64,000 nt of DNA, taken from assembly GCA_021793375.1 (NCBI GenBank), contig JAJYSY010000002.1:1-64000 (forward strand), written 5' to 3'. Positions within the stretch are counted from its first letter, which is position 1; every line of letters begins with the position of its first letter. Origin of the DNA: Bacteroidota bacterium (GTDB lineage Bacteria; Bacteroidota; Bacteroidia; Flavobacteriales; Flavobacteriaceae). Both the position numbers and the translations under genes were made by a program. This document shows, one piece after another, positions 25,366-50,057 of this stretch. The notes beneath the pieces are model-generated. The model was not told where the DNA came from. It searched no databases and saw only the letters and a list, made by a program, of their open reading frames with translations.

Positions 25366-25796
25366 ATGAAAAGAGCAATAGAAATTGCTCAACAAGGAGT
25401 GGATAACAACAAAGACGGCTCTTTTTGCGCTATTATGATGGAAAACGGAAAATTATTACCGATAGTTATAATCAAATTACCTCAGAAAATGATCCCACTG
25501 CTCACGCTGAAATTTCTGCTATCCGAAAAGCTTGTGAAAAAATAAATTCTTTTCAACTGGAAGACTGTGTTATCTACACTTCTTGTGAACCTTGTCCGAT
25601 ATGTTTTGGCGCTATTTATTGGGCAAGAGTAAAAGCTGTTTATTATGCTTGCACAAAAGAAGATGCCATTGAAATAGATTTTGACGATCAGTTTATTTAT
25701 TAAGAATTAGATAAAAACATAGATGATAGAAATATCAAGTTTGTCAACCTGTTAAGAGAAGATGCAAACAAGTTTTTAACCTCACTCCTATTATAG
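25366..25796 (+). pseudogene. Degraded nucleoside (guanine/cytidine-type) deaminase
   Basis: Reading from the ATG at 25366 gives MKRAIEIAQQGVDNNKDGSF, the normal N-terminus of the GuaD/TadA-like deaminases, but the frame is lost in the A-run near 25447-25451. One added base there would restore GKIITDSYNQ. The next frame holds the zinc motifs PTAHAEISAIRKAC and SCEPCPICFGAIYWARV. It then hits TAA at 25701, after which the same frame continues as ELDKNIDDRNIKFVNLLRED and ends at TAG 25794. So it has at least one frameshift and one nonsense codon in an otherwise recognisable gene. The middle fragment alone has no proper start, so I treat it as inactive. Confidence 0.85.
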
Positions 25797-45040: not shown

Positions 45041-46114
45041 TTGAAATTTAAAGTTTCTTTAATATTATTTTTCGTGGTGTGTAGTTTGCAAGCGCAGACT
45101 GCACGAAAATATTCAAATGAATTTTTGAATATCGGTGTGGGGGCAGATGCTTTTGGTAAAGCAAATACAGTGGTGGCCTCTACAGCTGATGTGAATTCCG
45201 GATATTGGAATCCGGCCGGATTAATCAATGTTGAAGACTATGAAATTTCTCTGATGCACGCGGCTTATTTTGCCAATATTGCCAACTATGATTATATCGG
45301 CGGGGCTATGCCGTTGGATGATGGAAAAAGCGCTGTAGCTTTTAGCATGATTCGTTTTGGTGTAGATGATATTATGAATACCACAAAACTGATTGATGAC
45401 CAAGGAGTAATTAATTATGATCGTATCAGTCTTTTTTCTGCTGCAGATTATGCTTTTACTTTTTCTTATGCTCGACAAACTCCTGTTGAAGGACTTTCTT
45501 ATGGAGCAAACGCAAAAGTAATCAGAAGAATTATTGGGAAATTTGCTGATTCTTGGGGTTTTGGATTTGATGTTGGCTTGCAATATCACACCGAAAATAA
45601 TTGGAGTTTTGGATTGATGGCAAGAGATATTACTACTACTTACAACACTTGGAGTATTGATAAAAACAGATATAAAGATATTCAGGATGCTGTGGAAGGA
45701 CAAAATCAAGAATTACCGGAAACAACAGAAATCACTCTTCCAAAATTACAGTTAGGAGTTGCCAAATCATTTGATTTTCATGAAGATTGGCAAGTTCAAA
45801 CAGAATTAAATCTACATACAAGATTTACCAAAACCCATGATATTATTTCTACTTCTGCAATGAGTATAACACCTTCTTTTGGATTTGAAGTAGGATATAT
45901 CAATATGGTTTATCTTCGCGGAGGAATAGGAAATTTCCAAAATGAAGAACAGTTTGATGGAAGCGACAGACTTGGTTTTCAACCTAACTTTGGGGTAGGT
46001 TTCAAATATAAAGGAATTAAAGTAGATTATGCTTTTACAGATATCGGCGATCAAAGTATAGCTTTATATTCCAATGTTTTTTCTATTAGTTTAGATTGGA
46101 GTATCTTTCGATAA
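45041..46114 (+). CDS. PorV/PorQ-family outer-membrane protein (PorV2-like)
   Basis: 357-residue outer-membrane barrel with a signal peptide (KFKVSLILFFVVCSLQAQ). The sequence GVGADAFGKANTVVASTADVNSGYWNPAGL is the typical start of PorV/FadL-like proteins tied to the type IX secretion system. Further strands run to a last one (SNVFSISLDWSIFR). The start is TTG: upstream ATG at 45009 meets a stop after ten codons. It does not look like PorV itself, which carries cargo to the attachment complex. I recall the 'PorV2' label for this variant. No other T9SS genes are nearby except gldA, which is distant. Confidence 0.7.
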   Translation: MKFKVSLILFFVVCSLQAQTARKYSNEFLNIGVGADAFGKANTVVASTADVNSGYWNPAGLINVEDYEISLMHAAYFANIANYDYIGGAMPLDDGKSAVAFSMIRFGVDDIMNTTKLIDDQGVINYDRISLFSAADYAFTFSYARQTPVEGLSYGANAKVIRRIIGKFADSWGFGFDVGLQYHTENNWSFGLMARDITTTYNTWSIDKNRYKDIQDAVEGQNQELPETTEITLPKLQLGVAKSFDFHEDWQVQTELNLHTRFTKTHDIISTSAMSITPSFGFEVGYINMVYLRGGIGNFQNEEQFDGSDRLGFQPNFGVGFKYKGIKVDYAFTDIGDQSIALYSNVFSISLDWSIFR

Positions 46115-47826: not shown

Positions 47827-48159
47827 ATGATTTTCAAAAAACTAAGACAAAAACGCTGGTTTAGGATTTTAAGCAATAAATATTTGCTTATTCTCCTTGT
47901 TTTTAGTGTTTGGATGCTTTTTTTTGATAGTAATTCTTATCTGATTCATAGAGAATTAAACGAAGAAATTGAAAAACTTAAAAACAACGAAGAATATTAT
48001 CGAGAGGAAATAGAAAAAGATCGTTCTGTTATGAAGCAACTCCAAGACGATGAAGGAATGGAACGCTATGCTCGAGAAAAGTATTTTATGAAACGTAAAA
48101 ATGAGGATATCTTTATCATTGAAGTTAAAGATACCCTCAAATCGGGAGTATCCCACTAA
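47827..48159 (+). CDS. Septum formation initiator FtsB/DivIC-like protein, C-terminal codons altered by an insertion
   Basis: Membrane-anchored division protein: a basic cytoplasmic start (FKKLRQKRWFRILSNK), one helix (YLLILLVFSVWMLFFD), a coiled coil (RELNEEIEKLKNNEEYYREEIEKDRSVMKQL) and a short distal domain (GMERYAREKYFMKRKNEDIFIIEV). It should couple with the FtsL/FtsQ-type complex at the septum. The gene originally ended DTLKSKK: the sequence after the downstream target duplication (49481-49488) reads in frame TCT AAA AAG TGA. The IS256 element replaced the last two codons, so the protein now ends DTLKSGVSH, two residues longer. Its functional core is intact. Confidence 0.85.
   Translation: MIFKKLRQKRWFRILSNKYLLILLVFSVWMLFFDSNSYLIHRELNEEIEKLKNNEEYYREEIEKDRSVMKQLQDDEGMERYAREKYFMKRKNEDIFIIEVKDTLKSGVSH
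48136..48143. repeat. 8-bp target site duplication, left copy (CTCAAATC)
   Basis: CTCAAATC at 48136-48143 repeats exactly at 49481-49488, bounding the IS element. Eight bases is the usual duplication size for IS256-family elements. The preceding C is shared too, so a 9-bp duplication is also possible. Confidence 0.85.
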
Positions 48160-48178
48160 CTGTGTAAGTTAAGATTGA

Positions 48179-48206
48179 GGGCTTGAAAAAACGTTTTTTC
48201 AAGCCC
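48179..48206 (+). terminator. Hairpin terminator inside the left end of the IS element
   Basis: GGGCTTGAAAAA pairs perfectly with TTTTTCAAGCCC around ACGT and is followed by a T-run (48207-48211). It lies upstream of the transposase gene, so it stops transcripts coming in from ftsB and shields the transposase from outside read-through. It now acts as the ftsB terminator. Confidence 0.8.
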
Positions 48207-48239
48207 TTTTTAATTTTTAATCCTTAATTTATACGCATT

Positions 48240-49436
48240 ATGAAAAAAGAAGAATTTTTAACCGATGAGTTTTTGGAGCAGTTCAAAAATGGAGAAGAGC
48301 TGACTAATTTTTTAAAGCAAATTCAAAAACGAGGTATTGAGAAGATACTTGAAGGCGAATTAGATGCCCATTTAGGCTATGCCAAACACGACAAACGCAA
48401 GTCCTCTAATACCCGCAATGGATATGGTAAAAAGAAGCTTAAAACCGATATGGGAGAAGCTGAAATTAAAGTGCCTCGCGACCGGGAATCAAGCTTTGAA
48501 CCCACTCTTGTCCCTAAACGGGGCAATATGGCCAAAGGTGTTGAGAATGTAATTATATCGCTCTATGCCAAAGGAATGAGCAACGAAGATATCCAGGAGC
48601 AGCTGGAAGAGATTTATAATTTTGAACTCTCTACCAGTGCCATATCCAGGATAACCGACCGTATTACAGACGATATTACAGCTTGGCAAAACAGGCCTTT
48701 GGAGCTGGTCTATTTAATTGTATGGATGGACGGGATTGTCTTCAAGGTCAGAGAAGACTCAAGAGTGGTCAATAAGACCATTTATATTGCTGTAGGACTG
48801 CGCAGAGATGGCTTAAAAGAAGTCTTAGGACTATGGTTGGGCAAGAATGAAAGCGCCTCTTATTGGATGAGCGTATTGACTGATATGAAAGCCCGAGGAG
48901 TTGAAGACATCTTAATTACGGCAACCGATAATTTAAATGGGTTTACTAAAACAATAAAAGAAGTTTTCCCTGAATCTAAAACTCAAATTTGTGTGATCCA
49001 TCAGATCAGAAATGCAGCGCGTTATGTGGTCTGGAAAGACAAAAAAGAGTTCTCTAAAGACCAGAAGGCTATCTACGCAACCCCTAACGTACAGGCCGCT
49101 GATGCAGCTTTAAAAAACTTTGAAAAGAAGTGGAATAACAAATACCGATACGCCGTTCAAAGTTGGCAAAACAACTGGAATGAACTCAGTGTCTTTTTTG
49201 ACTTTCCGGTAGAAATCAGAAAGATTATTTACACCACAAATCTAATCGAAAATCTAAATGGGAAAATCAGGAAATACACCAAAAACAAACTCTCATTCCC
49301 GACCGATCAGGCAGTTATGAAATCTGTTTATTTAGCCGTTAGAGAAGCTACTAAGAAATGGACTAAACCTATCAGAAACTGGGGAGTGATACTTAATCAA
49401 TTTTTAATTATATTTGAAAAAAGGGTTCGATTATAA
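48240..49436 (+). CDS. IS256-family (Mutator-type) transposase
   Basis: 398-residue DDE transposase that cuts and inserts the element. The N-terminal part ([33 protein letters not shown]) is typical of the IS256 family. The catalytic residues are D in [13 protein letters not shown] in [12 protein letters not shown], and E in [15 protein letters not shown]. The frame is intact, so the element may still be active. It begins 34 bases after the internal terminator hairpin and ends 44 bases before the right end of the element. Confidence 0.95.
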
Positions 49437-49480
49437 AACCAAACCCTTAATCTAACTTACACACTTTACGGGATAGTGTC

Positions 49481-49488
49481 CTCAAATC
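49481..49488. repeat. 8-bp target site duplication, right copy (CTCAAATC)
   Basis: Second copy of the target duplication. The bases that follow (TAAAAAGTGA) are the original 3' end of ftsB, giving S-K-K-stop in frame. Confidence 0.85.
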
Positions 49489-49499
49489 TAAAAAGTGAT

Positions 49500-50057
49500 T
49501 TATAACCACTCTACTTTTTCTTCTATAGAAGTTTCACGCGTTCCTTCCGGTAATTCTGTATCATAATTTCCCATATAGAAAATTCCTAAACACTGTTCTC
49601 CTTCTGCTAAATCAACAAACTCTCCCATTTTTTTGATCAAATTTGTCGGAGAACTCCAATAAGAACCGATTTTCATTTCAGCAGCCATCAACCACATATT
49701 TTGAACTGCCATTGCAGTAGCAGCTATTTCCTCCCACTCCGGAACTCTTTCTTTTAAATCTCTTTGCATACAAATTAAAATCACACAAGAAGAACGTTCG
49801 CATTTTTCGGCTATTCCTTTATATTTTCTTTCTGAAAACTTTTTAACGGTTTCTTTATATTTTTCACTTAAAAAATTTCCCAACTCCGTTAGTTTTTCTT
49901 CTTGCACAACTTTAAAACGCCAAGGTTCTGTTCTTCTGTGGGAAGGTGCCCAGTTTGCAGCTTCTAAGATTTTTTCTATCTGCTCTTTTGTGATAGGTTT
50001 ATCGTTATATTGCCTTGGAAAAACTGCTCTTCTGTTTTTAATTACCTTTTCAATCAT
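49500..50057 (-). CDS. Nitroreductase family protein
   Basis: 185-residue FMN-dependent nitroreductase-fold enzyme. The N-terminus has RRAVFPRQYNDKPITKEQIEKILEAANWAPSHRRTEPWRFKVVQ, where the first arginines and SHRRTEPW bind FMN, and the middle has EIAATAMAVQNMWLMAAEMKIGSYWSSP. It is expected to be a dimer reducing flavins, quinones or nitro compounds with NAD(P)H. The native substrate is unknown. It ends 11 bases from the right end of the IS duplication, opposite ftsB. Confidence 0.88.
   Translation of the reverse strand: MIEKVIKNRRAVFPRQYNDKPITKEQIEKILEAANWAPSHRRTEPWRFKVVQEEKLTELGNFLSEKYKETVKKFSERKYKGIAEKCERSSCVILICMQRDLKERVPEWEEIAATAMAVQNMWLMAAEMKIGSYWSSPTNLIKKMGEFVDLAEGEQCLGIFYMGNYDTELPEGTRETSIEEKVEWL

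Follow-up and report, generated by a model that had tools for sequence, protein, structure and literature searches.

The window analyzed here is a 64,000-nucleotide stretch at the start of a contig from a member of the Flavobacteriaceae. It contains the division gene ftsB (divIC), which adjoins lnt and is interrupted in its last codons by an insertion sequence (Table 1). Beyond the element lie the severed end of ftsB and a convergent nitroreductase-family gene, the stop codon of which (49500-49502) directly abuts the original ftsB stop codon (49497-49499). The gene ftsB is present in 58 of 60 related genomes, and in the interrupted copy the DivIC/septum formation initiator domain (PF04977) is matched above the cut-off at residues 23-98. 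Just upstream of lnt-ftsB is a gene (45041-46114) with a sub-threshold match to PorV of type IX secretion. Scans for Rfam families, tRNAs, and tandem repeats found nothing bearing on the insertion.

Table 1. Features at the interrupted ftsB locus (positions are those of the window).
Feature	Position	Strand	Basis
ftsB/divIC, 110 aa as interrupted; last codons GGA GTA TCC CAC TAA are IS sequence	47827..48159	+	ORF; Pfam DivIC PF04977 E=3e-10
Left target-site duplication CTCAAATC	48136..48143		Direct reading, script, relatives
IS256-family insertion sequence, 1337 bp	48144..49480	+	Borders common to second copy, 96% identical
Left terminal inverted repeat (extended, imperfect)	48144..48181	+	End comparison including relatives
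Intrinsic-terminator-like hairpin (14 bp, -19.4 kcal/mol, z -5.35) and T tract inside left end	48177..48212	+	Fold; relatives; covariation
Transposase, 398 aa, intact	48240..49436	+	NCBIfam transpos_IS256 E=1.2e-123; Pfam Transposase_mut; PDB 6xg8 E=6e-113
Right terminal inverted repeat	49444..49480	-	End comparison including relatives
Right target-site duplication CTCAAATC	49481..49488		Direct reading, script, relatives
Severed ftsB end: rest of Ser codon, two Lys codons, TGA stop	49489..49499	+	Direct reading
Weak hairpin then T-rich stretch, possible nitroreductase-gene terminator	49491..49511	-	Scan score at threshold; -6.2 kcal/mol, z -0.96 (weak)
Nitroreductase-family gene, convergent; stop codon abuts original ftsB stop	49500..50057	-	Pfam Nitroreductase E=7.7e-33; same arrangement in G001

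The protein encoded by the element is an IS256/Mutator-type DDE transposase. It scored 412 bits against NCBIfam NF033543 (transpos_IS256), where the cut-off is 150, and matched Pfam PF00872 (Transposase_mut) with E=1.9e-110. Nearly its whole length also matched PDB entry 6xg8, a crystallised Mutator family transposase that we take to be that of ISCth4. The architecture agrees with that of the IS256 family, in which one ORF of about 400 aa occupies an element of 1.3-1.5 kb (here 398 aa in 1337 bp) with imperfect terminal inverted repeats of about 20-30 bp and a target duplication of 8-9 bp (here 8). The matches to the three databases and the borders of the element bear out the family assignment of the original prediction.

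Both direct reading and a script placed the element between two exact copies of CTCAAATC, with inverted repeats GGGAGTATCCCACTAACTGTGTAAGTTAaGATTgAGGG / GACACTATCCCGTAAAGTGTGTAAGTTA-GATTaAGGG at its ends. The chance that an exact 8-bp match would sit precisely at both ends is about 1.5e-5, and the length of the duplication is that seen in resolved relatives, about 50 of which have exact copies. The borders were fixed independently by a second copy of the element in the same genome, which begins and ends at identical bases. The 8-bp duplication and 1337-bp element that had been proposed are correct to the base.

This second copy (G000:C73:61142-62474) is 96% identical to the first and lies on another contig (locus L002, G000:C73:59642-63974, with the element at 1501-2833 of that locus). 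Its neighbors are an NtrC-type response regulator gene, which has its stop codon 8 bp before the element, and a convergent ORF that lies about 15 bp beyond it. In its transposase gene a 4-bp deletion and a 1-bp insertion scramble about 20 residues before the frame is restored. No matching target duplication was found at its flanks, and we therefore consider it older or rearranged. The proposed search for other copies and their duplications was successful as to the copy but not as to a duplication. Absence of a match was also observed in G094, a complete genome in which four of nine near-identical copies (L147, L152, L154, L155) have no matching duplications, as if recombination between elements had rearranged the chromosome. 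Carriage of the element by plasmids was considered and rejected because the plasmid matches were more distant relatives only, with long matches at no more than 70% DNA identity.

A related genome was examined for the uninterrupted allele. In G001, one other genome of the same genus, ftsB is convergent with an orthologous nitroreductase gene (59% identical to the one beside the insertion) with no element between them. The sequence of this locus indicates that ftsB and the nitroreductase gene are true neighbors and that G001 has the ancestral neighborhood. The flanks of the element can thus be regarded as genuine. The FtsB protein of G001 ends in DSLEKNKQ; the GVSH-type ending is therefore not one that this relative has in the absence of the element. 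The assembly is a draft of 101 contigs that is 88.9% complete and has two copies of the element, conditions under which contigs could be misjoined through a repeated IS so that the two flanks do not really surround one copy. However, a false join would not produce an identical 8-bp duplication, the same two genes are directly adjacent in G001, and a 4% difference between the two copies makes them distinguishable. Such an artefact, which the original prediction had named as a possible source of error, is extremely unlikely.

Reconstruction of the empty site gave GAT ACC CTC AAA TCT AAA AAG TGA, encoding DTLKSKK followed by a stop codon. With the element in place the reading frame instead ends KDTLKSGVSH-TAA. 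The serine at the junction is retained (TCT to TCG), the two lysines are lost, and Gly-Val-Ser-His is gained. Codon reading thus upholds the in-frame exchange, with two residues lost and four gained, that had been proposed from the letters. The exchange starts at residue 107. Among about 30 relatives FtsB is conserved up to approximately IFIIEYEDSL, beyond which length and composition vary; some of these proteins stop right after this motif. A sequence search found no solved structures of FtsB homologues and we therefore turned to the work on FtsQ-FtsB from E. coli, where contact with FtsQ is limited to FtsB residues 64-87, residues 88-103 are disordered, and FtsB cut at D90 is functional, whereas FtsB cut at Y85 is not (PMC6134095). 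The exchanged residues fall after the region equivalent to this functional part. By analogy with E. coli the new tail looks harmless and FtsB function is expected to be unaltered.

Based on the free variation of this tail among relatives and the functional D90 truncation in E. coli, the acceptance of a transposon by an essential-type gene, which the original prediction had presented as a surprise, is ordinary; the exchange falls past the portion of FtsB that is conserved and functional, and gene 3' ends are the habitual landing place of this lineage of elements (see below). We also considered whether the new tail is adaptive, with GVSH or the changed 3' end of the ftsB mRNA altering division. 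The insertion is intact and recent-looking, and members of the lineage have added similar short tails to other genes, both of which would fit an adaptive role. This is nonetheless very improbable given that FtsB tails vary freely in relatives and the E. coli tail past D90 is dispensable. Moreover, three other unrelated genes took such tails, as would be expected if insertion at 3' ends produces them as neutral by-products. These encode an FdhD/NarQ protein (L158, tail DTIPKSV), a DUF4440-like protein just under the Pfam cut-off (L149, tail DTIP), and a thioesterase-like protein (L080, tail G). A further candidate, L101, was not counted since it is a fragment without a Pfam hit. The ftsB exchange is one of a series of such events in the lineage, and taken alone it is a small neutral event that is biologically mild.

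The left end of the element contains a hairpin and T tract resembling an intrinsic terminator. Nearly all of 33 distinct relatives have an equivalent hairpin of differing sequence, and in an alignment of 19 sequences compensatory changes occurred at 8 of 9 consensus pairs. A covarying terminator hairpin is thus conserved across the lineage within the first 120 bp of each element (L067-L146). The extended inverted repeat, which has its counterpart at the right end (AACCC...), shares sequence with the 5' arm of this hairpin. The hairpin should block read-through from ftsB into the transposase gene while providing the host transcript with a new end. A second terminator at the right end was ruled out by folding (z -0.24). 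The idea that stop codons in every frame are a special feature of the element's ends was not convincing; all three frames were closed within 45 bp at the left end of 33% and the right end of 55% of distinct elements versus 26% of shuffles.

We determined where this lineage inserts by scanning one genome per species, which yielded 80 loci, labelled as Bacteroidota taxa or metagenome-assembled genomes, with transposases 72-78% identical, to which 20 regions from related whole genomes were added. This gave 53 distinct insertions with a resolvable 8-bp duplication, 52 of which had enough flanking sequence for analysis. Sites were classed on reconstructed empty sites with a home-made ORF caller and terminator scan, and every other position in these loci served to set the expectation; some genomes contributed more than one insertion. 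Nearly half of the sites were between convergent genes (25/52 versus 1.25 expected, p=8e-27) and another eight were within the end of an ORF, no more than 20 bp from its 3' end (0.85 expected). Tandem genes flanked 12 sites (4.7 expected), only seven were elsewhere in ORFs (43 expected), and none of the 52 was between divergent genes. This bias was robust to the ORF length threshold and was spread over 31 genomes. A simpler test of neighboring genes gave a similar picture, with 34 of 48 copies of the lineage in convergent positions (34:14) versus 6 of 27 (6:21) in a small control of IS4/IS5 and IS110 copies from the same bacterial family (p=8e-5).

Some of this bias must be survivorship because intragenic hits in useful genes get lost. 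It could be argued that survivorship is all there is, with insertion being random and harmless sites such as gene 3' ends staying visible. Insertions of an IS256-family group (p-MULT 1) have been described as random and lacking a motif (PMC3942029), and a broad survey found IS256 among many families that are over-represented between convergent genes (PMC9208149). Within convergent DNA, however, where harm should be uniformly low, 13 of the 25 sites had a predicted terminator no more than 15 bp away, compared with 12% of convergent control positions (p=1.4e-6), and a run of at least four A or T was present in 13 of the 25 duplications versus 16% in controls. The small set of intragenic sites was likewise rich in such runs (4/7 versus 13%), and copies of other IS families within this bacterial family had no convergent excess, albeit in the small control described above. 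Selection plays a part, yet it is not an obvious explanation for enrichment inside convergent DNA, and we consider survivorship unlikely to be the whole explanation.

Several insertions fall within the T tract of a clear terminator (L119, L135, L164, L131, L105, L106, L118) and two are inside the terminator hairpin itself (L148, L157). As in elements that target terminators or REPs, copies of this lineage show a significant association with terminators or palindromes at the 3' ends of genes. No description of this association was found in the non-subscription literature searched. It is a tentative possibility that the lineage is a true terminator seeker. The transpososome may read the A/T-tract-plus-hairpin DNA or the supercoiling of intrinsic terminators at 3' ends, and the terminator at the left end of the element may replace the one that is disrupted, allowing cost-free settling beside essential genes. 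At ftsB, the target site lies in the tail of the weak minus-strand hairpin (49491-49511, z -0.96). Because this pre-existing terminator is weak, the ftsB site is a better example of insertion at 3' ends than of insertion at terminators.

We consider it highly probable that an IS256-family element was pasted into the end of ftsB, that the function of the gene was kept, and that the site is typical of a lineage that settles between convergent genes and at 3' ends. The DDE transposase would have inserted a circular copy of the element, a form known from the copy-out/paste-in pathway of ISCth4 (PMC7780238), at an A/T-rich site of 8 bp within the final three ftsB codons, at the point where this gene and the nitroreductase gene meet stop to stop, and host repair would have duplicated the 8 bp. 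Translation of ftsB now enters the left inverted repeat and halts at the TAA there to produce the GVSH tail, and the left-end terminator would end transcription. FtsB probably retains its function, as the exchange affects only residues past the conserved strand that contacts FtsQ. The bias of the lineage may reflect a preference for A/T-rich DNA, probably supercoiled or hairpin-prone, together with selection against harmful insertions.

There are precedents for a sharp target bias in an IS256-type element. The related ISCth4, whose transpososomes have been solved, favors target DNA that is A/T-rich and supercoiled (PMC7780238), and five of the seven copies of ISRm5, another IS256-family element, are in REP palindromes (PMC1525189). 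This is therefore not a new kind of element. The present element resembles IS256 and ISCth4 in its match to the transpos_IS256 equivalog and full-length match to 6xg8, its 1.3-kb size, single ORF, inverted repeats, 8-bp duplications, and A/T-rich targets. It differs from them in its conserved left-end terminator hairpin and in the concentration of its lineage at gene 3' ends; insertions of IS256-type elements, by contrast, have been described as random (PMC3942029). ISRm5, like other REP-targeting elements, goes into palindromic repeats, and these are mostly between convergent genes (PMC1525189), but the targets here are ordinary intrinsic terminators and A/T tracts rather than a dispersed REP family. 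The Mutator-type elements TnGBS, ISLre2, and ISKra4 have distantly related transposases and share a gene-sparing habit, yet they target the region upstream of sigma-A promoters (PMC3942029), whereas the lineage described here prefers the opposite end of the gene.

The ftsB case is a useful example of a widespread transposon lineage at gene ends that sometimes rewrites the last residues of host proteins, and what it adds is a pointer to elements that markedly favor gene 3' ends, possibly for a physical reason. Should the cause be physical and not survivorship, the view of IS256-type insertion as random would be corrected, and the lineage would be a tractable system in which to study how terminator structure or supercoiling is read by a DDE transposase. 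Group IIC introns likewise insert beside intrinsic terminators, but these are retroelements with an unrelated mechanism. Elsewhere in the window, a nucleoside (cytidine/guanine-type) deaminase-like gene (25366-25703) is apparently split by a frameshift, with its N-terminal part at 25366-25545 and its zinc-site part (HAE...PCPIC) at 25425-25703 in another frame, suggesting either a pseudogene or a sequencing error.
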